Shown here: positions 8,926 to 39,528 of the stretch, in pieces
Numbering within the stretch: the first letter of the stretch is position 1
Layout of the letters: every line of letters starts with the position of its first letter
Position numbers and translations under genes: made by a program
NCBI GenBank assembly: GCA_937129395.1
Contig: CAKZNE010000117.1
Span: 1 to 57,279, forward strand
Source of the DNA: an uncultured Cryomorphaceae bacterium
Lineage (GTDB): Bacteria > Bacteroidota > Bacteroidia > Flavobacteriales > Schleiferiaceae
DNA: 57,279 nucleotides
Direction: 5' to 3'
Notes under the pieces: model-generated
Databases searched by the model: none
What the model saw: only the letters and a program-made list of their open reading frames with translations
What the model was told of the DNA's origin: nothing

Positions 8926-8933
8926 TATATTTG
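8926..8933 (+). promoter_or_regulatory. -7 box TATATTTG upstream of wza
   Basis: Exact TAnnTTTG; inside ATGGAAATTCATCTATATTTGC (8913-8934), a 21/22 match to 3539-3560. Confidence 0.65.
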
Positions 8934-9005: not shown

Positions 9006-9755
9006 GTGCCGTTAGAAAAGCTCACATATCTTCAGGATGGGGATGAAAACAACCCTGAAAATCAAGTAAATTATTCATTAAAAAGGGCCGCTTATTTGGT
9101 TCAAACTGGAGACATTCTTGCCATAACAATAAAAACTTCGGACCAAAGAGGGGCGATGTATTTTAACAATCAAGGAACTAGCTTTTTAAATCAAGGACAA
9201 GGCGATTTGTTGCTTTATCTTAACGGATATACAATTAACCCTGCTGGGTTTCTTGAACTGCCGGTTTTGGGTCAAATTAAGGTAGTAGACAAAACTCTAG
9301 AAGAAGTAAAATTTATTGTTGAAACTCTTTTAAACGAATATTTTAAAGATGCGGCGACCATGGTGAGTGTTCAAATGGGAGGAATTAGATTTTCCATTAT
9401 TGGCGACGTAGTAAACCCAGGTCGTTATGTTATCTATCAAAATCAGGTGAATGTATTTGAAGCTTTGGCTTTATCGGGAGATATTACTGTAGTTGGAAAT
9501 AGAAAAAGTGTTCAAATCATTCGTCAGATAAAAAATGACAGCCTTGTGACTGTAAATATTGACTTAACAGATACTAAGATTCTAGAATCGGAATATTTTT
9601 TTCTTCAGCCAAATGATATTATCAATGTAAAACCATTATCGGTTAAAACTCTTGGAATTGGAACATCGGGTTTTCAAACTTTCGCATCAATTTTGGCCGT
9701 TTTGGCCTCATCTGCAACGTTGATTTTCACCTTAAATCAAATTGGAAAAAGCTAA
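9006..9755 (+). CDS. wza: Wza-type polysaccharide export lipoprotein (true N-terminus upstream, about 8961-8967)
   Basis: SLBB/polysaccharide export domains (GDILAITIKTSDQ...GYTINPAGFLELPVLGQIKV; VSVQMGGIRFSIIGDVVNPGRYV). In-frame upstream sequence encodes a lipobox ...VILFIISLLSSC but has no ATG/GTG/TTG. Confidence 0.85.
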   Translation: MPLEKLTYLQDGDENNPENQVNYSLKRAAYLVQTGDILAITIKTSDQRGAMYFNNQGTSFLNQGQGDLLLYLNGYTINPAGFLELPVLGQIKVVDKTLEEVKFIVETLLNEYFKDAATMVSVQMGGIRFSIIGDVVNPGRYVIYQNQVNVFEALALSGDITVVGNRKSVQIIRQIKNDSLVTVNIDLTDTKILESEYFFLQPNDIINVKPLSVKTLGIGTSGFQTFASILAVLASSATLIFTLNQIGKS

Positions 9756-9762: not shown

Positions 9763-12210
9763 ATGGAGGTTAACAATGAAGCCCAAAAAGATCAATCTCA
9801 GGAAGGTATAGATCTTAAAAAGATATTTTTCCGATTACTTGGAAGTTGGCCCCTCTTCGTGGGTGCCGTTTTGGTCGCCTTAATAATTTCCTTTTTCATT
9901 GCCAGATATTCAAATATCGAATATGATGTAAACGGAATTGTGATTATAGAAACCGAGGGAAAGAGTGACTTTGGAATCGGTCAAATTGCTAGCGCAATTG
10001 GATATAATAATCCAAGATTGTCCTTTGAAAATGAAATGATCATATTGTCCTCATTTTCTTTAGTGGAAAAAACTATTGCGAATCTCGATTTTGAGGTTTC
10101 CTATTTTGAAGAAGGACGAGTAAAATCGGTTGAGGTCTATGACCGTTCCCCTTTTATAGTTGAGTTCGATTCGAGTCATATTCAATCTGTAAATGTGAAA
10201 TTCGTAATTATTCCAGAAGAAGACGGGTATAAACTCAGCTTTGATGCTGAGAATATGGCGCCTTATTCCTATGAGCAAAAAGCGTTTGTCGACGGGGATT
10301 TACCAAAACTGGATTTTAATAATGATAACCTTATTCAGTTTGGAGAATGGATAGAAACCGAGTATTTTAAATTTAAAATTAACACTACCAAATATTGGGC
10401 TGGAACAAATAGAGTCCAATTTGAATTTAATGATTATGAAAAATTAGTTTCAAAATACAGATCTGGGTTAAAGATTTACCCAACATCTGAAGGGAGTTCT
10501 GGAGTTACAATCACTCTAACTTCTGCATGTCCTTCAAGGGCTAAAGTGTTTATTGATCAATATACCTCCGAATATTTAAATTTGGAATTGGATGCAAAAA
10601 ACAGGATTTCTGATCAAACTATTGAGTTTATATCTAGGGAATTAAAGACGATTGAGGATTCTCTGTCTTTTATTGAGGGTATTATGCAAAATTTCCTTTC
10701 AGAGAAAAAAATTGTTGATTTAAGTGCGGAGGGAAAAGAAATTTTCACCAGACTTTACACTTTGGAATCTGAGTATTCGGAACAAATTTTAAAGGATAGA
10801 TATTACCGTTATTTGGAAAAGTACCTATTAGATGAAGGAGATAATGGAAGTATAGTTGCCCCTTCTTCTTTGGGTGTCAATGATCCGCTTTTAATAAAAA
10901 TAATCAGTAATTTAAGCGAGCTATACGTTGAGAAAAAATCGTTGGAAACTGGTTTTAAACCTGGGAACCCAGTTCTGGTAGGTCTGGAAACCAAAATTAA
11001 ATCTGAAAAGTCAATCCTAAAGGAAAATTTGAAAAACATTACAGCCAATTCGGCATTTATGCTTTCCTCTTTGGAAAAACGGATTGATTTAATTGAACAA
11101 AATATTTCCTCGTTTCCTCAAACGGAAAGAGAGCTTATTAACATCAAAAGGAAATACGAAGTAAGTGAGAAACTTTACGTTTTCTTAATGCAGAAAAAAG
11201 CAGAATCAAGCATTGTTAAAGCATCGAATTTACCAATTAATAAGGTTATTGACTCTGCCAGGATTTCCGATAGTCCTGTAAAACCGAGAAAGACATTTAT
11301 TTATGTGGTTGGTTTGCTTCTGGGTATTGTCCTGCCAATGGCCTTTATCACCCTGAGGGATCTTTTTGACGTTAAAATCAGATCTAAACAGGACGTAGAA
11401 TCCATGACAAAGATCCCTATCGTGGGAGCTGTTGGACACAATTCTAAAGAGAGTAATTTAATGGTAAGCCAGTATCCGAAATCGTCTATTTCGGAATCTT
11501 TTCGATCCCTAAGGGCAAATCTAAAATTCTTTGGAGTGGACAAAAAGGAAACTCCCGTTTTAATGTTTACTAGTTCTATCGGTGGTGAAGGAAAGACATT
11601 TTGCTCAATAAACTTAGCCACGGCTATGGCGGTAGGTAATAAGAAAACGATACTAATTGGAGTGGATCTAAGGAAGCCCAAAATTTATAATGATTTTGGA
11701 TTATCGAATGAGAAAGGACTATCCTCGTATTTAATAGGCGAACATAGTCTTGATGAAGTACTCCAACCTACTTCAATTAACAATTTGTATCTGATTTCAG
11801 CAGGCCCAATTCCACCCAATCCTGCTGAATTGATTCTAGACCAAAATTTTAAAAACCTTATTGAGTCCTTAAAAAAGAGTTTTGATTGCATTGTTCTAGA
11901 TACTCCACCCATTGGGTTGGTGGCTGATTCATTTGAAATAATGAAACACGTTGATTATACTTTTTATCTTTGCCGACAAGGTTATACCGATAAAAGCCTA
12001 TTGCAACTAGTAAATGAAAAATACAATCAAAAGGTTATTAAAAATATTGGAATTATTATTAATGACGTTTCGTTGAATTCAGGCTACGGATATGGCTATG
12101 GTTACGGCTATGGTTACGGTTATGGTTACGGTTATGGTTACGGCTATGGATATACGGATGAAGAAGAATCAAAAGGTGGCTTTTTTAGGAGGTTGAAAAA
12201 ATCGCTTTAA
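9763..12210 (+). CDS. wzc: Wzc-like polysaccharide co-polymerase / BY-type tyrosine kinase
   Basis: Two TM segments around a coiled-coil periplasmic domain; Walker A SSIGGEGKTFCSINLA; Walker A' ILIGVDLRKPK; Walker B CIVLDTPPIG; Tyr-rich C-terminus. Confidence 0.93.
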   Translation: MEVNNEAQKDQSQEGIDLKKIFFRLLGSWPLFVGAVLVALIISFFIARYSNIEYDVNGIVIIETEGKSDFGIGQIASAIGYNNPRLSFENEMIILSSFSLVEKTIANLDFEVSYFEEGRVKSVEVYDRSPFIVEFDSSHIQSVNVKFVIIPEEDGYKLSFDAENMAPYSYEQKAFVDGDLPKLDFNNDNLIQFGEWIETEYFKFKINTTKYWAGTNRVQFEFNDYEKLVSKYRSGLKIYPTSEGSSGVTITLTSACPSRAKVFIDQYTSEYLNLELDAKNRISDQTIEFISRELKTIEDSLSFIEGIMQNFLSEKKIVDLSAEGKEIFTRLYTLESEYSEQILKDRYYRYLEKYLLDEGDNGSIVAPSSLGVNDPLLIKIISNLSELYVEKKSLETGFKPGNPVLVGLETKIKSEKSILKENLKNITANSAFMLSSLEKRIDLIEQNISSFPQTERELINIKRKYEVSEKLYVFLMQKKAESSIVKASNLPINKVIDSARISDSPVKPRKTFIYVVGLLLGIVLPMAFITLRDLFDVKIRSKQDVESMTKIPIVGAVGHNSKESNLMVSQYPKSSISESFRSLRANLKFFGVDKKETPVLMFTSSIGGEGKTFCSINLATAMAVGNKKTILIGVDLRKPKIYNDFGLSNEKGLSSYLIGEHSLDEVLQPTSINNLYLISAGPIPPNPAELILDQNFKNLIESLKKSFDCIVLDTPPIGLVADSFEIMKHVDYTFYLCRQGYTDKSLLQLVNEKYNQKVIKNIGIIINDVSLNSGYGYGYGYGYGYGYGYGYGYGYGYTDEEESKGGFFRRLKKSL
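12082..12153 (+). repeat. In-frame Gly-Tyr coding tandem repeat (12 x GGN TAY)
   Basis: GGC TAC GGA TAT GGC TAT GGT TAC ... GGA TAT; 72 bp encoding (GY)12. Confidence 0.95.
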
Positions 12211-12236: not shown

Positions 12237-12244
12237 TATATTTG
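12237..12244 (+). promoter_or_regulatory. TATATTTG -7-like box directly abutting a hairpin
   Basis: Exact TAnnTTTG; its last G is the first base of the inverted repeat. Confidence 0.5.
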
Positions 12245-12289
12245 CATTCACATTGAGTATAATAAGTACTCAATGTGAATGCTTTTTTT
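12244..12289 (+). terminator. Perfect 16-bp hairpin with T7 tract (terminator/attenuator)
   Basis: GCATTCACATTGAGTA-TAATAAG-TACTCAATGTGAATGC-TTTTTTT, read directly. Confidence 0.85.
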
Positions 12290-12321
12290 GTTTAATAAAA
12301 GTAAGTTGATTAATATTTGAA

Positions 12322-12855
12322 ATGATAGAGACCCTCATCACCTCAAAGACTCGAGTAAAGTTATTATTGAAGTTTTTTCTGAACTCCAATACGAAATCGT
12401 ATTTGAGAAATTTAGAGAGTGAATTTGGTGACTCAACCAACGCTATCCGTCAGGAATTAAACAGATTGGAAGGAGCTGGGCTTTTATCCAGTGAAAAAAA
12501 AGGCAACAAGAAGCTGTTTCAAGCCAATATGTTACATCCCCTTTTTGGAGATCTTCAAAATATTATCAAAAAATTTGTAGGAATAGATCAAATTATTGAA
12601 CGAATTGTGGAAAGAGTAGGAAATGTTGATCGAGTCTATTTGGAAGGCGAGTTGGCTAGGGGGATTGACTCAGATGTTGTTGATCTTGTTTTAATAGGAG
12701 AAACTATTAACAGAGCCTATTTGACTAGTTTAATTGAAAAAATAGAACCTATTCTAGGAAAGCACATTCGATACGTTATTAAGAACAAAGAAGAAGCTAC
12801 TAAGTATTTAGTAACAAAAAATGAATCATTTTTAATTTGGAATAAATCATGTTAA
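12322..12855 (+). CDS. Winged-helix (ArsR-like) regulator with degenerate nucleotidyltransferase-like C-terminal domain
   Basis: TSKTRVKLLLKFFLNSNTKSYLRNLESEFGDSTNAIRQELNRLEGAGLLSSEKKGNKKLFQAN (wHTH); EGELARGIDSDVVDLVLIG resembles a degenerate G-S..R...SDxDLxxxG NTase motif. Confidence 0.75.
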   Translation: MIETLITSKTRVKLLLKFFLNSNTKSYLRNLESEFGDSTNAIRQELNRLEGAGLLSSEKKGNKKLFQANMLHPLFGDLQNIIKKFVGIDQIIERIVERVGNVDRVYLEGELARGIDSDVVDLVLIGETINRAYLTSLIEKIEPILGKHIRYVIKNKEEATKYLVTKNESFLIWNKSC

Positions 12856-14135
12856 ACCAAAATCATCAAAAAATTGCAATTATAGGCTTGGGTTATGTAG
12901 GTCTGCCATTGGCGGTTGAGTTTTCGAAAAAATATAAGGTGGTCGGCTTTGATATTAAAGAGGCAAGAGTAACGGAACTTAATAGCGGTGCTGATTCAAC
13001 ACTTGAGGTGGAGGAAGCTATTCTCAACGCAGCCTTAAAAGGCGGTGAATCAATAGGTCTTGAGCTTTCATCGGATGTGGAAAGTATTAAAGATTGTAAT
13101 ATTTTTATTGTTACAGTACCAACTCCAATAGACGCTTTTAAAACACCAGACTTATCTCCACTTAAGGGAGCTTCCAAAATGATTGGCAAAATTTTAAAGG
13201 AAGGCGATATTGTGATTTATGAATCTACAACTTTTCCAGGTTGTACCGAAGAGGATTGTGTGCCGATATTGGAAGAGCAATCTGGTTTGAAATTTAACCA
13301 GGATTTTTATTGTGGCTATTCGCCCGAAAGAATAAATCCAGGAGATAAAATTAATACACTTACAAAAATTGTAAAGGTAACTTCAGGTTCCACCACGGAA
13401 ATTGGGCAAGTGGTGGATAAACTTTACGCCTCCATTATTACTGCTGGTACCCATTTGGCCCCTAATATGAAAGTTGCCGAAGCTTCTAAAGCAATAGAGA
13501 ATGCACAAAGAGATGTAAATATCTCTTTTGTAAATGAATTGGCTCTAATTTTTGATAGAATTGGAATTGATACTACAGATGTAATTGAAGCAGCAGCAAC
13601 TAAATGGAATTTCCTAAAATACAAGCCCGGTCTTGTAGGTGGTCATTGTATTGGGGTTGATCCTTATTACCTCGCCCATAAGGCAGAGTCGTTAGGTTAT
13701 CATCCTCAAGTAATTCTTTCTGGAAGAAGAGTAAATGATAACATGGGAATGTTCGTGGCTAATAAGGTTGTGAAATTAATGATTAATAAAGGCCAAGTTA
13801 TTAAAGGTTCTAAGGCCCTTATTTTAGGAATTACCTTTAAAGAGAACTGCCCAGATATTAGAAATACTAGAGTGGTGGATATTCATAAAGAACTTCTTCA
13901 ATTTGGAATGAACGTGGATATTTTTGATCCTTGGGCAAATTATGAAGAAGTTAAGCATGAATACGACCTGGAAATTTTAACTAAATTACCTCAAAATCAG
14001 TACGATTCTATAATCGTAGCTGTATCTCACAATGAATTTTTAGAAATTGATTTTAATGAATTGAAATCTGAAAAAGCAATAGTTTTTGACACAAAATCAT
14101 TCTTAAGTCTCGATAAAATCGATGGTAGATTATAA
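12849..14135 (+). CDS. UDP-N-acetyl-hexosamine 6-dehydrogenase (WbpA/TviB-like nucleotide sugar dehydrogenase)
   Basis: IAIIGLGYVGLPLAVEFSKKYKVVGFDI; ESTTFPGCTEE; GLVGGHCIGVDPYYL. Confidence 0.93.
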   Translation: MLNQNHQKIAIIGLGYVGLPLAVEFSKKYKVVGFDIKEARVTELNSGADSTLEVEEAILNAALKGGESIGLELSSDVESIKDCNIFIVTVPTPIDAFKTPDLSPLKGASKMIGKILKEGDIVIYESTTFPGCTEEDCVPILEEQSGLKFNQDFYCGYSPERINPGDKINTLTKIVKVTSGSTTEIGQVVDKLYASIITAGTHLAPNMKVAEASKAIENAQRDVNISFVNELALIFDRIGIDTTDVIEAAATKWNFLKYKPGLVGGHCIGVDPYYLAHKAESLGYHPQVILSGRRVNDNMGMFVANKVVKLMINKGQVIKGSKALILGITFKENCPDIRNTRVVDIHKELLQFGMNVDIFDPWANYEEVKHEYDLEILTKLPQNQYDSIIVAVSHNEFLEIDFNELKSEKAIVFDTKSFLSLDKIDGRL

Positions 14136-15159
14136 AATTGAAAATAAGGTAAAATTTGCCGTTGTAGGTTGCGGCCACATAGGGAAAAGGCATGCTGAAA
14201 TGATCCGTAGAAATCCGGAGGCAGAATTAGTAGCTTTAGTGGATATTAAGGAAAAAGATAAATTAGGTATCCCGGAAGAGAATGTTCCATTTTATAATAC
14301 GGTTGAAGAATTTTTAGAAGCCGATATTGATTGCGATGTAGTGAACATTGCGACCCCAAATGGTTTTCATGCAGAGCAGTCCTTAAAAGCACTTGAAGCC
14401 AGAATGCATATCGTGGTGGAGAAGCCAATGGCTTTGTCAAAATTAGATGCAGAGAAGGTTATATTTAAAGCTCTTCATGTGCATAAACATTTGTTTGCTG
14501 TAATGCAAAATAGATATTCGCCTCCATCGGCCTGGTTAAAAGGATTAGTAGATAGTGGAAAGCTTGGGGAGATTTACATGGTTCAACTAAATTGCTATTG
14601 GAATAGAGATGATCGTTATTATCATTCAAATACCTGGCACGGAAAGAAGGATTTGGATGGCGGAACTTTGTTTACTCAATTTTCTCATTTTATTGATATT
14701 ATGTATTGGCTTTTTGGTGATATCTCTAACATCACAGCAAGGTTCAATGATTTTAATCATCAAAATCTTACAGATTTTGAAGATTCCGGTATCGTGAATT
14801 TCGATTTTGTAAATGGTGGAATGGGTTGTTTAAACTATTCAACTTCAGTACCCATGAGTAATTTGGAGTCGAGCCTTACAGTTATTGCCGAAAATGGCTC
14901 TATTAAGGTTGGCGGCCAATACATGGATAAGGTAGAAGTTTGTAATGTAAAAGATTATGAAATGCCTGAATTAGCTCCTACTAACCCAGGTAATGACTAT
15001 GGCGCATATAAAGGCTCAGCCGCAAACCATAACTACATTATTGAAAATGTAATTGATGTGCTTAAAGGCAGAAATTCCATTACAACAAATGCCCTTGAAG
15101 GGTTGAAAGTAGTCGATATAATAGAAAGGATTTATTCAGAAAAGAAAGGACAGAAGTAA
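14122..15159 (+). CDS. Gfo/Idh/MocA oxidoreductase, WbpB-like (UDP-GlcNAcA 3-dehydrogenase family)
   Basis: FAVVGCGHIGKRHAEMI; VVEKPMALSKLDAE; NRYSPPSAWLK; overlaps the WbpA-like gene. Confidence 0.85.
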   Translation: MVDYKIENKVKFAVVGCGHIGKRHAEMIRRNPEAELVALVDIKEKDKLGIPEENVPFYNTVEEFLEADIDCDVVNIATPNGFHAEQSLKALEARMHIVVEKPMALSKLDAEKVIFKALHVHKHLFAVMQNRYSPPSAWLKGLVDSGKLGEIYMVQLNCYWNRDDRYYHSNTWHGKKDLDGGTLFTQFSHFIDIMYWLFGDISNITARFNDFNHQNLTDFEDSGIVNFDFVNGGMGCLNYSTSVPMSNLESSLTVIAENGSIKVGGQYMDKVEVCNVKDYEMPELAPTNPGNDYGAYKGSAANHNYIIENVIDVLKGRNSITTNALEGLKVVDIIERIYSEKKGQK

Positions 15160-15206
15160 AAGGTTACAGCCTGTTTAATCCTAAAACCAATACAAGATTG
15201 TAATAT

Positions 15207-16388
15207 ATGTTAGACCTAATTGGACGTAAAGAAAAATTGTTTTCTCAAGATATTTCTGAACTAAATGAAGATTTATTTTCAAAAGTTAATAGCTCAAAAT
15301 TCCTTGTCCTAGGAGGAGCTGGGTCAATCGGTCAAGCGGTGGTGAAGGAGATTTTTAAAAGAAATCCTTTAAAACTCTATGTTGTTGATATTTCTGAAAA
15401 TAACCTTGTAGAATTGGTTAGAGATATTAGAAGTTCAGCCGGATATATAGAGGGTGACTTTCAAACTTTTGCTTTGGATATTGGTTCATGGCAATATGAT
15501 GACTTTGTTAAAAATAGTGGTGAATTCGATTATGTTTTGAATTTATCGGCGCTTAAACATGTTAGAAGTGAAAAGGATGTTTTTACTTTAATGCGAATGA
15601 TTGAAGTCAACATTTTTAATACCACTAAAACAATTAAACAAAGTATTAAACAAGGAGCGAAAAAATACTTTTGTGTTTCCACTGATAAAGCCGCAAACCC
15701 TGTGAATATGATGGGAGGTTCTAAAAGAATAATGGAGATGTTTGTAATGGAGGAAAGTAAAAACATTAATCTTTCCATGGCACGTTTCGCTAATGTTGCC
15801 TTTTCTGACGGATCCCTACTTCATGGGTTTAACCAAAGGATACAAAAGAAACAACCAATTGTGGCACCAAATGATATCAAAAGATATTTTGTAACCCCAC
15901 AAGAGTCTGGGGAATTGTGCCTTTTGTCTTGTATTTATGGAGAAAACCGCGATATATTTTTTCCGAAATTAAGCGAGGATCTACACCTAATTACTTTTTC
16001 TGAAATAGCCGATCGCTACCTGAAAAGTATTGGTTTTGAACCTTACCCGTGTAAATCTGAGGTTGAAGCCCGAGAATTAATGTCAACTTTACCTCAAAAA
16101 GGAAAATGGCCTTGTTTATTTACGACTAGTGATACGACAGGAGAAAAAGATTTTGAAGAATTCTTTACGGACAAGGAAGTGTTGGATTTAGAGAGATTCA
16201 AAAACCTAGGGGCAATTAAAAATAATCTCGAGGACAATTCAGAAAAGCTTGAGTATTTCGAAAAATCAATTTCAAAATTTAAGGAGTCCTCAGAATATTC
16301 AAAAAAAGAAATTGTAGATCTTTTCTTTACTATGCTTCCTGGATTTGGACATGAAGAGAAAGGAAAAAATTTAGATGGCAAAATGTAA
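15207..16388 (+). CDS. NDP-sugar 4,6-dehydratase-like SDR (LegB-like)
   Basis: FLVLGGAGSIGQAVVKEIF, STDKAANPVNMMGGSKRIMEMF; first gene of a Leg-like block. Confidence 0.8.
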   Translation: MLDLIGRKEKLFSQDISELNEDLFSKVNSSKFLVLGGAGSIGQAVVKEIFKRNPLKLYVVDISENNLVELVRDIRSSAGYIEGDFQTFALDIGSWQYDDFVKNSGEFDYVLNLSALKHVRSEKDVFTLMRMIEVNIFNTTKTIKQSIKQGAKKYFCVSTDKAANPVNMMGGSKRIMEMFVMEESKNINLSMARFANVAFSDGSLLHGFNQRIQKKQPIVAPNDIKRYFVTPQESGELCLLSCIYGENRDIFFPKLSEDLHLITFSEIADRYLKSIGFEPYPCKSEVEARELMSTLPQKGKWPCLFTTSDTTGEKDFEEFFTDKEVLDLERFKNLGAIKNNLEDNSEKLEYFEKSISKFKESSEYSKKEIVDLFFTMLPGFGHEEKGKNLDGKM

Positions 16389-16399
16389 GTTTTTTATTT

Positions 16400-17548
16400 A
16401 TGAGCAATAATTTTGAGGCTATCATCCGGGGAATAAGAAAAAGCTTTAATACCAAAGAGTTTATTCCGCTGCATGTACCTCAGTTTTGGGGTAAAGAAAA
16501 AGAAAACCTTTTAGATACTATAGACAGCACTTTTGTTTCTTCCGTTGGCGCGTTTGTAAATAAAGTAGAAGAACAAATGACCGACCTTACTAAAACGGCA
16601 AAGGCTGCCGCTGTGGTTAACGGCACAGCAGGGCTCCAGGTAAGTTTGAGAATCGCTGGTGTTAACCCTGGCGATGAAGTTCTGACCCAAGCTTTAACTT
16701 TTGTGGCAACAGCAAATTCAATAGCTTATAATCATGCATCTCCAGTTTTTATTGATGTAGATAAAGATACGATGGGCTTGTCCCCAATTGCATTAAAAAA
16801 CTTTTTAGAAGAGTTTGGTGATTTGAGAGAAGAGGGTTGTTTTAATAAAAAAACGAATAAAAGAATTGCAGCCTGTATGCCAATGCACACTTTTGGTTTT
16901 ATGTGCAGAATAGATGAAATTGTTGCCATTTGTGATGATTGGGAAATTCCGGTGGTTGAGGATGCTGCAGAAGCATTGGGTAGCTCATATAAAGGAATTT
17001 CAGCTGGAAAATTTGGTCAAACGGGTGTATTCTCCTTTAATGGAAATAAAATTATTACTGCCGGAGGCGGTGGAGTAATTGTTAGCAGAGAACCGGAATT
17101 TGCTGAAAAGGCAAAATATTTAACCACTACTGCAAAGGTTCCTCATAAATGGGAATATGTGCACCAAGAAATGGGTTATAATTTTAGAATGCCAAATCTA
17201 AACGCGGCGTTGCTTTCTGCCCAATTGGATAATTTTGATCATTATAAAAGTTCAAAAGCCGAACTATATTTAGAATATAAAGCCTTATTTGAAGGAAGTA
17301 ATGTGGAATTAGTTTCGATACCAAAGGACACAAATTGGAATTATTGGTTAATGAGCGCTTGTTTTGAAGATAAAAAGGAAAGAGATGTTTTTCTTGAGAA
17401 GTCCAATGAAAGTGGAATTATGACTAGACCAATCTGGCAATTAATGTACAGATTGCCGATGTACGAAAATTGCCAGAAAGACGAGCAATTGAATGCGGAA
17501 TTTTTAGAGCAGAGAATTGTTAATATGCCTAGTAGTGCAAGAAAATAA
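16400..17548 (+). CDS. DegT/DnrJ/EryC1 aminotransferase (LegC-like)
   Basis: FIPLHVPQFWGKEKENLLDTIDSTFVSSVGAFV; FSFNGNKIITAGGGGVIV (PLP lysine). Confidence 0.87.
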   Translation: MSNNFEAIIRGIRKSFNTKEFIPLHVPQFWGKEKENLLDTIDSTFVSSVGAFVNKVEEQMTDLTKTAKAAAVVNGTAGLQVSLRIAGVNPGDEVLTQALTFVATANSIAYNHASPVFIDVDKDTMGLSPIALKNFLEEFGDLREEGCFNKKTNKRIAACMPMHTFGFMCRIDEIVAICDDWEIPVVEDAAEALGSSYKGISAGKFGQTGVFSFNGNKIITAGGGGVIVSREPEFAEKAKYLTTTAKVPHKWEYVHQEMGYNFRMPNLNAALLSAQLDNFDHYKSSKAELYLEYKALFEGSNVELVSIPKDTNWNYWLMSACFEDKKERDVFLEKSNESGIMTRPIWQLMYRLPMYENCQKDEQLNAEFLEQRIVNMPSSARK

Positions 17549-18170
17549 TAAGTCAAATATTCTTCTGGGATATTCAGGACATGCCTATGTTGTTGCTGAA
17601 GCTTTTTTAATGAGCGGTGGCGAAATAAAAGGGTATACAGATATTTCTGAAGCAAAACTAAACCCATTTGATTTGAAATATTTAGGAAATGAGGGCGACA
17701 ACTTATTCACGCATTGGAATGAGGGCAATGCCTTTATTTTGGCTATTGGAGACAATAGCATAAGGATGAAAATTGCAGACTTGGTAAAAATAAAAGGTAT
17801 GAAATGCCAAACGGTGATTCATCCTGCATCGTCTATTTCTTCGTTTACCACTATTGGTGAGGGTACTTTTATTGCCAGAAATGTTTCAGTAAATCCTTTT
17901 TGCAAAATTGGAAAGGCAGTTATTCTAAATACCGCAAGTTCAATAGATCACGAATGTGAAATTAGCGATGGAGTTCACCTAGCACCAGGTGCAGTTTTAG
18001 CTGGTAATGTTCGGATCGGTAAAGGCAGTTTTATTGGTGCTAATAGTGTTATTAAACAAGGTGTTACAATTGGTGATAACGTAGTGGTTGGAGCTGGATC
18101 AGTTGTTTTAAATGATATAACAAAAAACTTAACTGTGGTAGGAAATCCATCTAAAGAATTGAAGCAGTAA
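17535..18170 (+). CDS. NeuD/LegH-like sugar O/N-acetyltransferase (ORF opens at 17517; GTG at 17535 more likely)
   Basis: NILLGYSGHAYVVAEA N-domain, hexapeptide repeats (GVHLAPGAVLAGNVRIGKGSFIGANSVIKQGVTIGDNVVVGAGSVV). Confidence 0.83.
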   Translation: MQENNKSNILLGYSGHAYVVAEAFLMSGGEIKGYTDISEAKLNPFDLKYLGNEGDNLFTHWNEGNAFILAIGDNSIRMKIADLVKIKGMKCQTVIHPASSISSFTTIGEGTFIARNVSVNPFCKIGKAVILNTASSIDHECEISDGVHLAPGAVLAGNVRIGKGSFIGANSVIKQGVTIGDNVVVGAGSVVLNDITKNLTVVGNPSKELKQ

Positions 18171-18175
18171 ATACA

Positions 18176-19198
18176 ATGAAAGACACTTTAATAATTGCTG
18201 AGGCTGGAGTAAACCACAATGGTGACCTTGATACAGCGAAGAAATTAATCGACGCAGCGGCAGCAGCTAATGTTGATTTAGTTAAGTTTCAAACATTTAA
18301 AGCTGAGACTATTGCCAGTAAAGAGGCGAAAAAAGCAGATTATCAAACCGAAAATATTGGCGACTCTAGTGATTCTCAATATAACATGCTTAAGAAACTA
18401 GAACTAAGTGAGGATCAGCATCAAGAATTAATAAAATATTGTAAGGAAAAAAATATTGAGTTTTTCTCAACTGCCTTCGATAATGAAGGTTTAGATTATT
18501 TAAACTCATTGGGTTTTAGCCAATTTAAGGTGCCAAGTGGTGAACTGACAAACTATCCATATTTAAAAAAACTAGCTACTTTTAAAAAACCTGTTATTTT
18601 ATCCACGGGAATGGCAAGCATGACAGAGATAAGGGCTGCGGTTGAAGTCCTATGTTCGGAAGGATTAACTCTAAATGACCTTACTGTTCTCCATTGTAAT
18701 ACTGAATATCCTACCCCAATGGAGGATGTGAATTTATTGGCAATGAAGAATATCGCTGATGAATTAGGGGTTGCCATAGGCTATTCAGACCATACCCTTG
18801 GTATAGAGGTGCCAACAGCAGCTGTAGCCTTAGGAGCAACCGTTATTGAAAAACATTTCACTTTAGATAGAAATTTACCGGGTCCAGACCATAGAGCATC
18901 CCTAGAACCGGATGAATTAATTGCCATGGTTAAGTCAATACGAAATATTGATAAAGCCATTTCAGGTAGTGGAATAAAAGAACCTTCTAAGAGCGAGAGT
19001 AAAAATAAGGAGGTAGCAAGAAAAAGTATTCACCTTAATAAGTCTCTTACCAAAGGTTCTTTTTTAAAGGAAAATGATCTTTTAGCATTAAGACCTGGAA
19101 GTGGTATTTCTCCTATGGAATGGAATAATATTTTAGGTAAGGAACTCAGGCGAAATTTGGATGCCTTTTCATTGTTAAAATGGGAGGATCTCAAATAA
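18176..19198 (+). CDS. N-acetylneuraminate/legionaminate synthase family (NeuB/LegI)
   Basis: IIAEAGVNHNGDLDTAKKLIDAA; KVPSGELTNYPYL; EKHFTLDRNLPGPDHRASLEP; C-terminal SAF domain. Confidence 0.93.
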   Translation: MKDTLIIAEAGVNHNGDLDTAKKLIDAAAAANVDLVKFQTFKAETIASKEAKKADYQTENIGDSSDSQYNMLKKLELSEDQHQELIKYCKEKNIEFFSTAFDNEGLDYLNSLGFSQFKVPSGELTNYPYLKKLATFKKPVILSTGMASMTEIRAAVEVLCSEGLTLNDLTVLHCNTEYPTPMEDVNLLAMKNIADELGVAIGYSDHTLGIEVPTAAVALGATVIEKHFTLDRNLPGPDHRASLEPDELIAMVKSIRNIDKAISGSGIKEPSKSESKNKEVARKSIHLNKSLTKGSFLKENDLLALRPGSGISPMEWNNILGKELRRNLDAFSLLKWEDLK

Positions 19199-19199
19199 G

Positions 19200-20354
19200 A
19201 TGACACAAAAGACAGAAAAGATTAAAGTAGGTTTATTAACCAGTTCTCGGGCGGATTTTGGCATTTACCTACCCTTGCTGAAGAAGCTTTATGGTGATGA
19301 TGGTTTTAATCTTTCTATTATTGCATTTGGTACTCATTTGTCTAGATATCATGGTTATACCTTAAATCAAATTGAAGCACAAGGATTTGAAGTAAGTCAT
19401 AAAATTGAATCTTTACTTCTCACTGATACAAGGGGATCCATTTCCTCTTCAGTAGCTCTAACAGGTTTAAAGTTCGCGGATTTTTGGAATGAACACCAAG
19501 ACTCCTTCAATGTAGTTTTTTGTTTAGGCGACAGATTTGAAATGTATGCTGCCGTGCTTGCAGGGGTTCCATTTGGGATAAAATTTGCGCATATTCACGG
19601 CGGAGAAACTACGCTTGGAGCAATAGATAATGTTTATCGCCATTGTATAAGTTTAGCATCTTACTGGCACTTTACTTCAGCACAACCTTTTTCAGAAAGA
19701 GTAGCGGAAATTATAGGAAGCGATGAAAACGTATTTAATGTGGGCTCTATTAGTTTAGAAAACCTTTTGAATATGAGGCTGTTGAGTGAGGAACAGTTTG
19801 AGGAAAAATTTGGTATTGATCTAAATATTCCAAGTATTTTAATTACTTATCACCCTGAAACTACGGGAATTAGTAAAATAAAGGAGCAAACTAAAGAAAT
19901 GATTGACGCTTTTTTATCCTTGGCAGAAAATTACCAATTGATAATTACCATGCCGAATACGGATACAGAAGGAAGTTTTATAAGAGAGCAATACGAGGCT
20001 CGAATTAAAGGGAATAAGCGTATTTTTTTGAAAGAAAATTTTGGAACATTAGGATATTTTGCCGCCATGAAGAAGGCTAAACTTGTACTCGGAAATAGCT
20101 CTAGTGGAATTATTGAGGCCGCATCTTTTGGAAAGTATGTGGTGAATATTGGAATGAGACAAGAGGGGAGATTAGGTTCCCAAAATTTAATACATGTTGA
20201 TTTTTCAGCAACGGAAATAGTAAAAACTGTAATTAATTTTGCTACCCAATCCTACCAGGGTGATAATGTGTTTGATCAGGGTGCTTCGAGCAAAAAAATA
20301 CTTGAAATAATAAAGACAGATTGTAAAAATAAGGGAATTGATTATAATAATTAG
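19200..20354 (+). CDS. Hydrolysing NDP-N-acetylhexosamine 2-epimerase (NeuC/LegG-like)
   Basis: VGLLTSSRADFGIYLPLL; LGDRFEMYAAVLAG; HIHGGETTLGAIDNVYRH. Confidence 0.92.
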   Translation: MTQKTEKIKVGLLTSSRADFGIYLPLLKKLYGDDGFNLSIIAFGTHLSRYHGYTLNQIEAQGFEVSHKIESLLLTDTRGSISSSVALTGLKFADFWNEHQDSFNVVFCLGDRFEMYAAVLAGVPFGIKFAHIHGGETTLGAIDNVYRHCISLASYWHFTSAQPFSERVAEIIGSDENVFNVGSISLENLLNMRLLSEEQFEEKFGIDLNIPSILITYHPETTGISKIKEQTKEMIDAFLSLAENYQLIITMPNTDTEGSFIREQYEARIKGNKRIFLKENFGTLGYFAAMKKAKLVLGNSSSGIIEAASFGKYVVNIGMRQEGRLGSQNLIHVDFSATEIVKTVINFATQSYQGDNVFDQGASSKKILEIIKTDCKNKGIDYNN

Positions 20355-20371
20355 GAATAACAATTGGTAGC

Positions 20372-21427
20372 ATGACAAGCAGTTTCAAAGACCACCTAGT
20401 ACTTCAAGGGTCATCAATAAAAGATGCTTTGCTAAAACTAAATAATTTAGCGAGTGACTCTATTTTATTTGTAGTTGACGAAAAGGGAAAACTTATTGGA
20501 AGTCTAACCGATGGTGATGTAAGGAGAGGGTTAATAGCCGGAATGAGTACAGGGAATGTGGTAGACGAATTTATTCAACCTGCACCTCGTTTTATCAAAA
20601 AGGATGATTATTCGATTGATGAAATAATTAAACTCAGAAAGGGTAACTTTAAGGTGATACCAGTATTGGATCAAGATGATTGCGTGATTAATGTAATTAA
20701 TTTTGGTCGTCAAAAATCCTATTTACCGTTGGACGCTATAATAATGGCCGGTGGTCGTGGAAGTAGGCTAAGACCTATGACTGATACTGTTCCAAAGCCA
20801 CTTCTGGAAATAGATGGCAAACCAATTATAGATCATAATTTAGACAGATTAAGATTATTTGGAATTGATGATTTCTGGATTTCTATTCGCTATTTAGGAG
20901 AGCAACTTGAGGAGCATTATGGAGATGGAAAATCTCGTGGGGTGAATATTAATTTTCTGCACGAAACTGAGCCTCTTGGAACTATTGGTGCTGTAGGACA
21001 AATAAATGGCTTAGCGCATGACAATGTATTAGTTACCAATTCAGATTTGCTAACTACATTGGATTACGAAGACTTTTTTCTAGACTTTTTAGAAAAGGAA
21101 GCAGATATGTCAATTGCTACCATTCCGTATAATGTTGATATCCCCTATGCCGTTATGGAAACTAACAATAATATGGTAACTTCGTTTAAAGAAAAACCAA
21201 CTTATACCTACTATTCTAATGGCGGTATTTATCTAATAAAGAAAAACTTAATTGATTTCATTCCGAAAAACGTGCATTTTAATGCTACGGACCTAATGCT
21301 AGAGCTAATTAATCAAGGTAAAAAGGTTGTATCCTACCCTTTAAGACAATATTGGCTTGACATTGGAAAACCAGATGATTTTAAGAAAGCGCAGGAGGAT
21401 GTAAGACATTTAAAACTTGACATTTAA
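20372..21427 (+). CDS. CBS-domain sugar-1-phosphate nucleotidyltransferase (PtmE-like)
   Basis: N-terminal CBS pair (FVVDEKGKLIGSLTDGDVRRGL) + AIIMAGGRGSRLRPMTDTVPKPLLEIDGKPI. Confidence 0.87.
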   Translation: MTSSFKDHLVLQGSSIKDALLKLNNLASDSILFVVDEKGKLIGSLTDGDVRRGLIAGMSTGNVVDEFIQPAPRFIKKDDYSIDEIIKLRKGNFKVIPVLDQDDCVINVINFGRQKSYLPLDAIIMAGGRGSRLRPMTDTVPKPLLEIDGKPIIDHNLDRLRLFGIDDFWISIRYLGEQLEEHYGDGKSRGVNINFLHETEPLGTIGAVGQINGLAHDNVLVTNSDLLTTLDYEDFFLDFLEKEADMSIATIPYNVDIPYAVMETNNNMVTSFKEKPTYTYYSNGGIYLIKKNLIDFIPKNVHFNATDLMLELINQGKKVVSYPLRQYWLDIGKPDDFKKAQEDVRHLKLDI

Positions 21428-21438
21428 TTTTACCATAA

Positions 21439-22143
21439 ATGATAAACGGAAAGAAAGTTTTAGCATTGATCCCTGCTCGAGGGGGTAGCAAAGGTTTACC
21501 AGAAAAGAATAAAAAAGAGTTTAATGGAAAACCCTTAATTGCTTGGTCTATTGAGCATGGGTTGAAATCAGAATTTGTTGATAAAGTGGTAGTTACAACA
21601 GATGATTTAGAGATTGCAGAAATAGGAAGGAAATATGGTGCTGAGGTACCATTTATGAGACCTCAAGAATTAGCTTCTGATACTGCAACTTCAATGGATG
21701 TTATTGTTCACGCATTAGATTTCCTCAAAGCACAAGGCGAAGAGTTTGAATTATTGATGCTGTTAGAACCTACTTCCCCACTAAGGGAAGTTAGTGATAT
21801 TGACAATTCTCTAAGCCAACTAGAATCTAACAAGCAAGCAAGAAGCATAGCTGGTGTATGCGAGGTTGAGGCCCAGCATCCAGATTTTTTGGTGAAATTG
21901 GAAAAAGGCTTAATGAGGCCCTTTACCACTTTTGAAGTGAAAAGAAGACAAGAACTTTCTGAACTCTACTTCTTCGAAGGAACGGTATATGCGGCTGAAG
22001 TAGAATATTTGAGGGAAAGCAGAACATTTTACGGAAACCATACCCTAGCCTATGTTGTGTCTAAACAAAAATCAATTGAAATTGATGATGAGGTAGATTT
22101 TGTAATTGCAGAAGTGTTAATGAAAGTATTTAATAAGAACTAA
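21439..22143 (+). CDS. Acylneuraminate/legionaminate cytidylyltransferase (NeuA/LegF-like)
   Basis: VLALIPARGGSKGLPEKNKKEFNGKPLIAWSIEHGL; ELLMLLEPTSPLR. Confidence 0.92.
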   Translation: MINGKKVLALIPARGGSKGLPEKNKKEFNGKPLIAWSIEHGLKSEFVDKVVVTTDDLEIAEIGRKYGAEVPFMRPQELASDTATSMDVIVHALDFLKAQGEEFELLMLLEPTSPLREVSDIDNSLSQLESNKQARSIAGVCEVEAQHPDFLVKLEKGLMRPFTTFEVKRRQELSELYFFEGTVYAAEVEYLRESRTFYGNHTLAYVVSKQKSIEIDDEVDFVIAEVLMKVFNKN

Positions 22144-22144
22144 T

Positions 22145-23458
22145 ATGAAAAACGCAGGTGTAGATTTATACCAAAAAGCCAAGGAACTTATTCCAGGTGG
22201 AACTCAGTTGCTTTCTAAAAGGCCTGAAATGTTCTTACCAAATAAATGGCCTTCTTATTATTCCAAAGCTAAGGGCGGGAAAATATGGGATTTAAATGGT
22301 AATGAGTATAAAGACTTTATTACGATGGGTATTGGAGCATGTGTATTGGGATATGCTGATGATGATATTGACAATGCTGTTGTTGATGGACTACGAAAAG
22401 GTAATATGACCTCCTTAAATGCTCCAGAGGAAGTAGAACTTGCCGAACTTTTTACCTCCATTCATCCTTGGAGTGACATGGTAAGGTATACACGATCTGG
22501 AGGGGAAGCTCTTACCGTTGCTGTGCGTATTGGTAGAGCTGCAAGTGGCAAGGATAAGGTAATGTTTTGTGGATATCATGGATGGCATGATTGGTATTTA
22601 GCCGCAAACCTTAGTGAAGACGCCGCATTGGACGGTCATCTACTTCCTGGTTTAAAACCTAAAGGAGTTCCAAGAGCATTAAAAGGAACATCTCTTCCCT
22701 TCAATTTCAACGATATCGAAAATTTCACTGAAGTTTTTGAGAAGAATAAAGACGAAGTTGGTGTTTTGGTGTTGGAAATTATTAGAAATGTAGAACCAAA
22801 CCAAGATTTCTTAAATAAGATTCAAAAAGCTTGTAAAGAAAATAATATTGTTTTTGTAATTGATGAAGTAACGTCTGGTTGGAGGCTCAACCTTGGCGGT
22901 GCTCATTTGCTTTATGATGTAGAACCGGATATTGCAGTTTTTGGAAAAACTACAAGTAATGGTTATCCATTTGGAGCAATCATTGGCAAGAGAAAAATAA
23001 TGGAGGCTGCACAAGAAAGTTTTATTAGCAGCACATATTGGACAGACAGGGTTGGTTCTGTAGCAGCATTAGCCACCATCAAAAAAATGACGGCTTTAAA
23101 CACTCCAGATCACCTAGTGAAAATAGGAATACAAGTGCAAGAAGGCTGGGCCAAAAGGTTGGAGGAAAGAAATATTCCTTACAATACATTTGGTATCCAC
23201 CCCTTAAGTCATTTTTCCATTCTTCACGAACAAGCAGCTTTGCTTAAAACGTATTTTACTCAGGAAATGCTGAAAAAGAACTATTTGGCATCAACAGTAG
23301 TATATACATCTATGGTACATACAACAGAATCTGTTGAGGAGTATTTAACCGCTTGCGAAAGTGTATTCGATAAAATTGCCGAAGCAATAGAAAAGGATGA
23401 ATTTGATAATCTTCTTGAAGGACCGGTATGTCATTCAGGATTTAAACGCTTAAATTAA
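22145..23458 (+). CDS. Class III aminotransferase, glutamate-1-semialdehyde aminomutase-like
   Basis: AKELIPGGTQLLSKRPEMFLP; VRYTRSGGEALTVAVRIGRAASGKDKVMFCGYHGWHDW; AVFGKTTSNGYPFGAIIGK. Confidence 0.85.
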   Translation: MKNAGVDLYQKAKELIPGGTQLLSKRPEMFLPNKWPSYYSKAKGGKIWDLNGNEYKDFITMGIGACVLGYADDDIDNAVVDGLRKGNMTSLNAPEEVELAELFTSIHPWSDMVRYTRSGGEALTVAVRIGRAASGKDKVMFCGYHGWHDWYLAANLSEDAALDGHLLPGLKPKGVPRALKGTSLPFNFNDIENFTEVFEKNKDEVGVLVLEIIRNVEPNQDFLNKIQKACKENNIVFVIDEVTSGWRLNLGGAHLLYDVEPDIAVFGKTTSNGYPFGAIIGKRKIMEAAQESFISSTYWTDRVGSVAALATIKKMTALNTPDHLVKIGIQVQEGWAKRLEERNIPYNTFGIHPLSHFSILHEQAALLKTYFTQEMLKKNYLASTVVYTSMVHTTESVEEYLTACESVFDKIAEAIEKDEFDNLLEGPVCHSGFKRLN

Positions 23459-23463
23459 TTATT

Positions 23464-24633
23464 ATGAGAAAATGTGGAAACTGTTTGTTACCAGAAACCT
23501 ATGAGACACTGGTTATTGAGCAAGATGGATCTGCTTGTAGTATGTGTAAAACTACCGATTTCAAACAAAATTTTGTGAACTGGGAGGAACGCAAAAAATC
23601 TTTAGATAAGGTAATTGAAAAATATCGTGGGAAGTACGATTATGATTGTATAGTTCCATTTAGCGGTGGTAAGGATAGTACCTTTACTCTATATTACTTA
23701 ATGAAAGAGTATAATATAAAACCTCTAGTTGTTCGGTTTGATCACGGTTTTATGAGAAGAAAGCATGAAGACAAAACAGTAAGAATGCTCAAAAAATTAG
23801 GTGCTGATTTTATTAATTTTAAGCCTAATTGGGAAATTGTAAAAAAATTGATGTGGGAATCTTTTAACCGTAAAACAGATTTTTGTTGGCACTGTCACAC
23901 TGGAATTTATTCCTACCCTCTTCAAATAGCATTAAAATTTAATGTGCCTCTTATTCTTTGGGGTGAACCTTTAGCCGAAATGTCTTCTTACTATACCTAC
24001 GAAGATGATTTAATAGAATGGGAAGATGAGGAGAAATTTAACATGCTTCGAAATCTTGGTATTACTGCAGATGATATGCGCGGAATGATTCATACTGAGG
24101 AGGAACCAATAGACAGAAGAGATCTTTTACCTTACACCTATCCTCCGTTGCAGGAACTTAAAAAGATGGACTATTATTCCGTTTGCCTAGGAAGTTTTAT
24201 TCCTTGGGATTATAAAAAGCAAACTAAGATTATCATGGATGAGCTTGGTTGGGATGGCGATGAACTGGAAGGAGTACCTGAAAGTATCAATGAAGAATTC
24301 GCTAAAGTAGAATGTTGGATGCAAGGTACTCGGGACTATATTAAGTATTTGAAAAGAGGATACGGTAGAGTTACACAGTTGGTAAACTTTGAAATAAGAG
24401 CTGGAAGAATGACCACTGAAGAAGCACAAGTATGGATTGACAAATACGAAGGTAGAAAACCTCAATCTCTGGATGTATTTCTTGAATACATGGGGATTAC
24501 CGAAAAGGAATTTAACGATACAATCAGGAAATTTGTTGTACCACCATTTGATCCTGATTTTGATAAGTTGCCATTAGCTGAAAAGGTCCATGATCTTGAT
24601 GAATGGTATAGAGAGAATAATAGAGATAAATGA
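23464..24633 (+). CDS. N-acetyl sugar amidotransferase (PseA/WbpG family), copy 1
   Basis: CGNCLLPETYETL / CSMC zinc-ribbon-like, PP-loop FSGGKDSTFTLYYL; followed by HisH/HisF-like genes. Confidence 0.88.
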   Translation: MRKCGNCLLPETYETLVIEQDGSACSMCKTTDFKQNFVNWEERKKSLDKVIEKYRGKYDYDCIVPFSGGKDSTFTLYYLMKEYNIKPLVVRFDHGFMRRKHEDKTVRMLKKLGADFINFKPNWEIVKKLMWESFNRKTDFCWHCHTGIYSYPLQIALKFNVPLILWGEPLAEMSSYYTYEDDLIEWEDEEKFNMLRNLGITADDMRGMIHTEEEPIDRRDLLPYTYPPLQELKKMDYYSVCLGSFIPWDYKKQTKIIMDELGWDGDELEGVPESINEEFAKVECWMQGTRDYIKYLKRGYGRVTQLVNFEIRAGRMTTEEAQVWIDKYEGRKPQSLDVFLEYMGITEKEFNDTIRKFVVPPFDPDFDKLPLAEKVHDLDEWYRENNRDK

Positions 24634-25247
24634 TCGGAATATTAGATTATGGAATGGGAAATTTAAGGTCAGTTAAGAACTCCTTAGATTTTCTTTTTCT
24701 TGAAAACACAATAGTCTCAAACCCTGAGGATTTTAAGAATATTACCCACTTAATAATCCCAGGGGTTGGTGCTTTTCCAGAAGCCATTGAGAATATTAAA
24801 AACGGATCATTCCATCAACCCATTTTGGATTTTGCAAAAGAAGGTAATCCCATTCTTGGTATTTGCCTTGGAATGCAACTTCTAGCCTCATTTGGGGAAG
24901 AGGTTGAACGCACCGCTGGCCTTGGCTTAATTCCTGGCAGAGTGATTTTGATGAACCCTAAGGATTTAACAATTCCTCATATTGGTTGGAATGGGCTTTC
25001 TTACTTAAAAGCCCATCCCATTTTTGACGGAGTAAAAAAAGGCGCAGATCTGTATTTTGTTCATTCCTACTATTTTAAAACAGAAAATGATAATAATATT
25101 TTGTGTGAAACTACTTATGGCGATAAATTTCCATCCGTGGTTGTAAATGATCTGGGCAATGTTGTAGGAATGCAGTATCATCCAGAAAAAAGCCAAAAAC
25201 AGGGTTTAAAAATCCTTGAGAACTTTTCAAGAATGGAAAAATGTTAA
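24630..25247 (+). CDS. HisH-like glutamine amidotransferase, copy 1 (sugar amidation)
   Basis: GILDYGMGNLRSVKNSL; GICLGMQLLASFGEE (nucleophile Cys); MQYHPEKSQKQG. Confidence 0.9.
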   Translation: MIGILDYGMGNLRSVKNSLDFLFLENTIVSNPEDFKNITHLIIPGVGAFPEAIENIKNGSFHQPILDFAKEGNPILGICLGMQLLASFGEEVERTAGLGLIPGRVILMNPKDLTIPHIGWNGLSYLKAHPIFDGVKKGADLYFVHSYYFKTENDNNILCETTYGDKFPSVVVNDLGNVVGMQYHPEKSQKQGLKILENFSRMEKC

Positions 25248-25999
25248 AAAAACGAATAATACCAACTCTCCTATTAAGAAATGGGAGAATGGTTAAAGGG
25301 ATAAATTTTGATAATTTCCGGGATACTGGAGATCCAATTTTTGCTTCACGTGTTTACAATTCTCAATATGTGGACGAATTGGTATTCTTGGATATTGACG
25401 CTACCAATGAAGGCAGAAGAACAAATGCCAAAATTATTGCTGAAGTTTCAAAAGAGTGCTTTATGCCTTTAACTATAGGAGGTGGGGTAAGTTCTGTGGA
25501 AATTATCCGGGAACTTCTTAATAATGGTGCGGATAAGGTTGTTATCAATTCTGCTGCTTACACAGATTCTGATCTGATCCGAAAAGGAGCCAATAGATTT
25601 GGAAGCCAATGTATTGTATTAGGTATTGATGTAAAAAAAGAAGATGGAGCATTTATTCTTTACAAAAATTCAGGTAGAACAAGGTGTGATATTTCTTTAA
25701 AAGATCATATTAAAAATATGGTTGAATGTGGTGTTGGCGAAATTTTCGTAAATAACATTTCCAATGATGGTGTAATGCAAGGCTATGATTTAGACTTGAT
25801 TAATAAAGTTACCGATTTGGTAAACATTCCGGTTATTGCGTGTGGTGGTGCAGGTAATTTCCAGCATTTAGTAGATGCCTATAAGGGAACCAATGTTAGT
25901 GGTTTAGCAATGGCTAGCATCTATCATTTTGGAGATAATAATCCAATAAGAGCCCGGGCACATTTAATGAATAATCAAATTCCTATTAAAAGCGTTTAG
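25241..25999 (+). CDS. HisF-like ammonia-channel subunit, copy 1
   Basis: (beta/alpha)8 HisF pattern MLKKRIIPTLLLRNGRMVKG...ELVFLDIDATNE...IGGGVSS...GADKVVINSAA; Asp11 replaced by Leu. Confidence 0.9.
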   Translation: MLKKRIIPTLLLRNGRMVKGINFDNFRDTGDPIFASRVYNSQYVDELVFLDIDATNEGRRTNAKIIAEVSKECFMPLTIGGGVSSVEIIRELLNNGADKVVINSAAYTDSDLIRKGANRFGSQCIVLGIDVKKEDGAFILYKNSGRTRCDISLKDHIKNMVECGVGEIFVNNISNDGVMQGYDLDLINKVTDLVNIPVIACGGAGNFQHLVDAYKGTNVSGLAMASIYHFGDNNPIRARAHLMNNQIPIKSV

Positions 26000-26000
26000 A

Positions 26001-26669
26001 ATGATTAACACCTCTATTTCAAAGGAGAACCTTTTAAACTATTTGGGTAGCCAAATAGAAAATAATTATTCTGATGGAGATCATGATAATTTTATTATTA
26101 GTTCCAAAGTTGTTTTTGAAAAAGTTATGGAGCGTATTTCATTTAGCTTTTCTCATGTTAAGTCTAGATATTATAGTACGGATGGACAACCTTATTTTAA
26201 TCATTTAAATGGAGATCACTACTGCTCTTTTTTAGCGGTTCTCGCAAATGAACTCTATAAATTTGGTGATGAGAATTCTGCAACAAAAGCATTCTTGCTA
26301 AATAAAATGATGTTTGGTATTGATGCCTTTTACACAATTGAATTACCCAGAATATTTTTATTCGTTCACCCAATTGGTACTATTCTAGGAAATGCCACAT
26401 ATTCAGATTATCTGGTTGTATACCAAGGAATAAGCATTGGTTCTAAAACAGATGGGATATATCCTACATTTTCAGAAAAAACTATTCTTTATTCCAATTC
26501 ATCGGTAATAGGCAATTGTAATTTAGGACCTAATTGTGTTGTAGCAGCGAGATCCTATATTATTGCCAAAAATGTCGAAGCAAACAAGGTGATTCTTGGT
26601 AGTTATCCTGATAACAGGATAATTGATAATAAGAATGATATTATTAAGGACTATTTTCATTTATTATGA
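26001..26669 (+). CDS. CysE-like hexapeptide acetyltransferase
   Basis: FLFVHPIGTILGNATYSDYLVVYQGISIGSKTDGIYPTFSEKTILYSNSSVIGNCNLGPNCVVAARS. Confidence 0.68.
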   Translation: MINTSISKENLLNYLGSQIENNYSDGDHDNFIISSKVVFEKVMERISFSFSHVKSRYYSTDGQPYFNHLNGDHYCSFLAVLANELYKFGDENSATKAFLLNKMMFGIDAFYTIELPRIFLFVHPIGTILGNATYSDYLVVYQGISIGSKTDGIYPTFSEKTILYSNSSVIGNCNLGPNCVVAARSYIIAKNVEANKVILGSYPDNRIIDNKNDIIKDYFHLL

Positions 26670-27406: not shown

Positions 27407-27447
27407 ACTTACCCCTTGGGATTAAAAGAAGCATTTAAAATGTAATT

Positions 27448-30242: not shown

Positions 30243-30244
30243 TT

Positions 30245-30859: not shown

Positions 30860-30860
30860 T

Positions 30861-32743: not shown

Positions 32744-32748
32744 ATAGA

Positions 32749-36225: not shown

Positions 36226-36256
36226 TTTAGCATTTAGAAATAAAAAGGTTAATGCC

Positions 36257-36293
36257 TTTCAGAGGATAGAGAGGTATTTCCTATTCTCTGAAA
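36257..36293. other. Intercistronic stem-loop (13-bp stem with one G-U)
   Basis: TTTCAGAGGATAG-N11-CTATTCTCTGAAA, no T-tract. Confidence 0.55.
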
Positions 36294-36311
36294 ATAATGA
36301 TTTAGAAAATT

Positions 36312-37448: not shown

Positions 37449-37449
37449 G

Positions 37450-38316: not shown

Positions 38317-38340
38317 ATTTAGAAATTAAAGTGAGTCATT

Positions 38341-39513: not shown

Positions 39514-39528
39514 AATGATTTTTGATTA

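Follow-up and report, generated by a model that had tools for sequence, protein, structure and literature searches.

The stretch of DNA analysed here (hereafter the window) comprises 57,279 nt of the forward strand of contig CAKZNE010000117.1, from the 3.8-Mb draft assembly of an uncultured Cryomorphaceae bacterium (GCA_937129395.1). A wza-like polysaccharide export gene and a wzc-like gene are followed by a short intergenic region, a regulator gene and a co-directional glycan cluster that contains genes for a UDP-sugar dehydrogenase, a LegC aminotransferase, NeuB, epimerases and a sugar transferase. The features discussed below are:

8926..8933, + strand: TATATTTG, probable separate promoter of wza-wzc
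9006..9755, + strand: wza-like polysaccharide export gene (Poly_export)
9763..12210, + strand: wzc-like tyrosine autokinase gene, last gene of the operon putatively ended by the hairpin
12237..12244, + strand: TATATTTG, very probably a Bacteroidota -7 element (TAnnTTTG), from its consensus match, intergenic bias and recurrence in loci
12244..12282, + strand: perfect 16-bp stem with a 7-nt loop, intrinsic-terminator candidate of wza-wzc
12244-12259, + strand: left arm, GCATTCACATTGAGTA, read directly
12249..12250, + strand: predicted transcription start, 4-5 nt past the -7 box and inside the left arm
12253..12273, no strand: operator core TTGAGTA-N7-TACTCAA, 21 bp, conserved beside the regulator gene across Bacteroidota
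12260-12266, + strand: loop, TAATAAG, read directly
12267-12282, + strand: right arm, TACTCAATGTGAATGC, read directly
12283..12289, + strand: T7 tract of the candidate terminator
12322..12855, + strand: regulator gene, encoding an ArsR/SmtB-like winged helix (~1-75) and a degenerate MNT/nucleotidyltransferase-like domain (~88-175)
12849..47228, + strand: glycan cluster, with the 12237-12289 element as its presumed control point

The wzc-like gene ends (window 12090-12160) in a tyrosine-rich tail (GYGYGYGY) that near-perfect GGTTAC/GGCTAT repeats encode, as in one of the related loci (L144); the tail is presumably an autophosphorylation cluster.

Hairpin and T tract behind wzc

The initial annotation had described a promoter box fused to a perfect hairpin and a T tract, and all of these parts are present exactly there, with G12244 serving both as the last base of the TATATTTG box and as the first base of the hairpin. 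Among the short-range inverted repeats of the 57-kb window, the 16-bp perfect repeat is the longest of its kind. The RNA of 12244-12290 is predicted to fold with -25.8 kcal/mol, as compared with -5.6 +/- 2.1 kcal/mol for shuffled sequences (z = -9.5), and the fold adds one pair within the loop to give a 17-bp stem and a 5-nt loop. The hairpin begins 34 nt past the wzc stop codon (12210), and its stable stem is directly adjoined by the T-rich tract. When terminator-like sites were scanned over 8000-18000, 27000-46999 and 46500 to the cluster end, 12244-12289 was the best site found, with no second candidate between wzc and the next gene. The claim that the element terminates wza-wzc is therefore backed by stem, fold energy and T7, which make it, as a prediction, a strong intrinsic-terminator candidate. 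Elsewhere in the window, another strong candidate, AGAAAGTCCCGCCTAGAGCGGGACTTTTTTTT, lies at 56554-56582, past the gene ending at 56533.

The regulator and its palindrome

The AlphaFold model of the regulator is confident (mean pLDDT 92.8) and has two domains, for which Foldseek finds ArsR/SmtB/HlyU/SqrR-like winged helices, among them the SqrR, CzrA and SmtB repressors, and MNT/nucleotidyltransferase proteins. A profile search with the regulator matches 2rff (E 1.3e-6), whose catalytic SDID aligns with eiid in the regulator family profile; the first Asp is replaced by a hydrophobic residue, and the GS...DxD motif of active MNT nucleotidyltransferases is lacking. Since the first catalytic Asp is lost, a sensing role is likelier than catalysis for the C-terminal domain. 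Pfam holds no match above its cut-off, the score against the NCBIfam ArsR model is 18.9 (cut-off 55), and neither collection provides a curated family. In this regard, the modelled fold suggests a protein that works like ArsR/SmtB without being filed as a member, and we presume it to be an autorepressor, because the operator described below coincides with the -7 box or directly follows it.

Regulator loci were collected with the 12322-12855 protein, 80 from species genomes and about 20 from relatives, and an unbiased hairpin scan of the regions upstream of the regulator genes first brought out the recurrence of TTGAGTA-N7-TACTCAA. Scored over 14 positions with up to 3 mismatches and within 700 bp upstream of the regulator gene, the operator is found in 94 of 102 loci (the window is counted, as are a few loci that are weak or duplicates, L100-L102) and in 96 of 2040 shuffled regions; the loci are phylogenetically related, so that this count and those of the promoter box given below are not independent. 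It is perfect in 37 loci and no more than 120 bp away from the regulator start in 77, while in about 5% it lies more than 400 bp upstream, with an intervening gene. The GAGTA/TACTC positions are mostly 95-100% conserved, the lowest being the A at position 16 (87%), and the flanks of the core are near background across loci. As the regulator proteins are only ~36-62% identical to that of the window, this conservation is not simple DNA conservation. The initial annotation had pointed to a 15-bp palindrome of operator size and had proposed looking for it before winged-helix regulator genes of relatives: the recurrence is borne out in about 100 Bacteroidota loci with otherwise unconserved flanks, and linkage to the regulator supports the operator role, but the core is a specific one of 21 bp (12253-12273) and not a generic one of 15 bp.

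Exact copies were searched in the source genome, 88 family genomes and 393 phylum genomes, with the reversed pattern as a control. The 3.8-Mb assembly contains one exact copy, at 12253-12273, and no sign of a regulon elsewhere in it, sites with up to 2 mismatches being no commoner than those of the reversed pattern (24 vs 22 per strand). Six of the family genomes have exact copies. By their coordinates, those of five (G000, G002, G019, G020 and G029) are located at the regulator gene; in the sixth, G062, the DNA past the operator reads into a regulator-like start resembling that of G029. A NusG-like gene stands between operator and regulator in G019. In G020, a second exact copy precedes a decayed second copy of the regulator gene (L101/L102, G020:C71, ~43.2 kb), which lies downstream of a Wzc gene and has also kept a TACATTTG box. 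A regulator match is carried by 58 of the 393 sampled phylum genomes. Of the 19 exact sites in this sample, 12 are within 117 bp of a regulator start and the remaining 7 are in genomes without a regulator match, the reversed-pattern control likewise yielding 7 genomes. In the regulator-bearing genomes of the sample, exact copies thus occur nowhere but at the regulator, a distribution typical of local autoregulators. Invertible-promoter repeats were ruled out, since each genome has one palindrome only and no promoter is flanked by a pair. Taken together, the palindrome is conserved, tied to the regulator gene and scarce in other places. It very probably serves the 12322 regulator as operator, the adjacency of the two pointing to binding.

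The outer 9 bp of each arm, beyond the operator core, are specific to the source genome. An extension longer than these 9 bases occurs in only one other of the ~94 loci (L057), where it is A+T-rich and the T tract is missing. In most relatives the symmetry is limited to the GAGTA-N7-TACTC core, mostly with no T tract, and two congeners (G001 and G002) as well as G029 have a separate intrinsic-terminator hairpin ~50-70 bp upstream of the operator. No fusion of operator and terminator was found in the relatives examined, the two congeners included. The juxtaposition of box and hairpin noted initially is thus conserved as a pair of box and operator, but its fusion with a terminator is seen only in the source genome, where both are merged into one object within a 53-base stretch.

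The probable promoter box and the proposed element

In sigma-A promoters of Bacteroidota, TAnnTTTG occupies roughly -12 to -5 and the start lies 4-5 nt beyond it (PMC6847099, PMC9723704, PMC7366714). The start predicted at 12249-12250 takes its spacing from F. johnsoniae, where transcription begins 4-5 nt beyond the -7 box (PMC6847099), and from F. psychrophilum (PMC9723704). All five copies of TATATTTG on the + strand of the window are intergenic and upstream of gene starts, 0.17 being expected with intergenic DNA making up 3.1% of window bases. The other four, at 3552, 4264, 8926 and 55815, each precede another gene and are probably housekeeping promoters of the source genome. Direct reading of the sequence reveals no -33 element (TTTG/TTG) at 19-21 nt before the 12237 box, and none is clearly seen at the other four boxes either; this element is weak or unseen in Flavobacterium (PMC7366714, PMC6847099).

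The box recurs in relatives in two positions. It is embedded in the palindrome (GAG-TAnnTTTG-TACTC) in 50 of 93 loci, 26 of which have a TTG 19-20 nt upstream. Among the 43 loci without an embedded box, 20, the window included, have a -7 box 3-20 nt upstream (0.9 expected from shuffles), beginning 11-28 nt ahead of the operator; the window is of this type. Neither form is present in 23 of the 93 loci. The intergenic placement and this recurrence uphold the initial reading of the 12237-12244 box as a -7 element, which it very probably is. Another candidate between T tract and ATG, AATATTTG (12312-12319), was set aside because its first T is missing and it would place the start on or beyond the ATG; sigma-70 scans, which represent the wrong promoter type for Bacteroidota, gave counts equal to those of shuffles.

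These findings allow us to propose, with a probability of about 0.72, that 12237-12289 is a compact element in which the terminator of wza-wzc, a promoter and an autorepressor operator are combined. Terminator, promoter and operator had at first been put forward as alternatives, and the evidence favours all three combined: the hairpin, the conservation and gene linkage of the operator and the recurrent -7 box can be read from the sequence itself, to which a predicted fold is added. Polymerase arriving from wza-wzc would transcribe the full 16-bp stem and U7 and would terminate. The housekeeping promoter (TATATTTG, 12237-12244) would drive the glycan cluster together with the regulator gene from a start at ~12249-12250, and its RNA would miss 5-6 bases of the stem foot (GCATT(C)). 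An RNA started there is predicted to keep a hairpin of only 10-12 bp, which stops 5-6 nt short of the U tract. A gap of this size between hairpin and U tract should weaken or abolish intrinsic termination, and consequently the transcript of the element's own promoter should escape. The regulator, presumably as an ArsR-like winged-helix dimer, would bind TTGAGTA-N7-TACTCAA at about +4 to +25 of the promoter and repress it until released by a ligand, plausibly a nucleotide or nucleotide sugar. That the terminator depends on the start site in this manner, stopping incoming transcription and exempting its own, with the repressor binding the DNA of the stem, is a part of the proposal to which we give even odds.

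A plain intrinsic terminator of wza-wzc would leave the operator likeness and the box incidental and the cluster expressed from elsewhere or by read-through. The excellent stem with T7, 34 nt past the wzc stop, and the missing -33 element would suit this explanation; it appears improbable in view of a core that is the very 21-bp palindrome accompanying the regulator gene throughout the phylum, usually with no T tract, and of a -7 box that recurs across loci and in the window. The initial annotation had also considered a very short RNA or a promoter-proximal attenuator, with transcripts started at the box ending at the T tract unless antiterminated. The fusion of box and hairpin is compatible with this idea, as are seven Saprospiraceae loci with a separate leader terminator between operator and ATG. 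However, RNA from 12249 or 12251 lacks the stem base and folds a shortened hairpin 5-6 nt apart from U7, no competing antiterminator structure is apparent, no known RNA family (Rfam) is matched in the window, and in the 50 relatives with the -7 box inside the palindrome the hairpin RNA would not be made. An attenuator is thus disfavoured and, in our estimation, quite improbable.

The same 50 loci bear on whether the palindrome could act as RNA, either as the site of an RNA-binding protein or as an mRNA stabiliser, and not as a DNA operator. The strong fold in the window speaks for such a role, but most relatives are symmetric only in the GAGTA-N7-TACTC core, and the transcript would start inside it; RNA from an embedded box would begin within the palindrome, without its left arm, and form no hairpin, which places the conserved function in DNA. 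With a linked protein of ArsR-like DNA-binding fold as well, we judge an RNA role very improbable. Finally, the same operator could serve an activator, or a regulator controlling promoters elsewhere, as the ~5% of loci with a distant site before an intervening gene would permit. This has a slim chance, as the site lies on the -7 box or behind it, where repressors sit, and as a single exact copy per genome adjoins the regulator gene.

The glycan cluster downstream plausibly has its main control point in this element. From 12322 to ~47 kb there is no second intergenic TAnnTTTG box on the + strand, the next lying at 49879, and the scanned stretches contain no terminator-like site in the intergenic gaps of the cluster. 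This is consistent with one control point for the ~35 kb but is no proof of it. The on/off point for these genes suggested initially is accordingly plausible and unproven. In relatives, too, the regulator gene heads glycan clusters: a UDP-sugar dehydrogenase match lies downstream in 47 loci, the clusters also have a LegC-type aminotransferase, sulphate-activation genes and others, and Wzc is upstream of the regulator in 12 loci.

If the proposal holds, a single 53-bp element would insulate, initiate and repress, as the merged version of a regulator-operator system that heads glycan clusters across the phylum and is apparently undescribed, no description having been found in the open-access literature. 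It would assign a precise DNA site to a widespread, apparently uncharacterised regulator at Bacteroidota polysaccharide clusters, one that is distinct from the much-studied invertible promoters and UpxY systems of gut Bacteroides. It would also represent a natural merger of operator and terminator that halts foreign transcription alone.

Leader elements of relatives and comparison with known systems

Between operator and regulator ATG, 16 of the related loci contain a conserved leader motif (~GKGACTnACnnGGCGRAGCYGTG) that is similar to the ops element of E. coli (GGCGGTAGCGTG); L144 and L149 have the motif as well. Of 40 relatives, 6 carry exactly one match to a stricter pattern, which in 4 lies beside the regulator and in the other 2 directly past wzc or amid polysaccharide-type genes. 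A short ORF, assigned to Pfam NusG in L085, directly precedes the motif in L085 and L089. The motif is a candidate recruitment site for an UpxY-like antiterminator. In nine Saprospiraceae loci, a leader 30-60 nt past the operator and before the ATG (AAGGGTTGTTTATAAATATTTT in several of them) precedes a hairpin that is rich in G+C and in most cases bears a T run, a possible attenuator separate from the operator. Rfam searches in 20 relatives returned one tRNA and nothing else.

Like UpxY/RfaH antitermination at capsule loci (PMC7819879), the element would act where polysaccharide operons begin, and a further resemblance is the NusG-like gene with ops-like motif that some relatives carry between operator and regulator. 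In contrast, the window has no ops-like motif, and no NusG-like gene between hairpin and regulator; a NusG search of the source genome gave no match and, as even the housekeeping NusG was missed, is uninformative. The C-terminal domain of the regulator resembles MNT/MntA nucleotidyltransferases (2rff, 5yep) in fold and profile match, but the first catalytic Asp is absent, the domain is fused to a winged helix, and no HEPN partner was noted.

Further parallels are the ArsR/SmtB local autorepressors (SqrR, CzrA, SmtB, NolR), with which the regulator shares the winged-helix fold and one palindromic operator on its own promoter, whereas the degenerate nucleotidyltransferase-like domain and the position at the head of glycan clusters are additions. 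As in Bacteroidota sigma-ABfr promoters (TTTG / TAnnTTTG; PMC7366714, PMC6847099, PMC9723704), the -7 consensus is exact and is also found at four other gene starts of the window; unlike them, the box here has no -33 partner and lends its last G to the base of the terminator stem. Stem, short loop and T7 directly past the wzc stop are those of intrinsic (Rho-independent) terminators, but in this case the stem also holds the putative operator of the regulator and the predicted start region of the next promoter.
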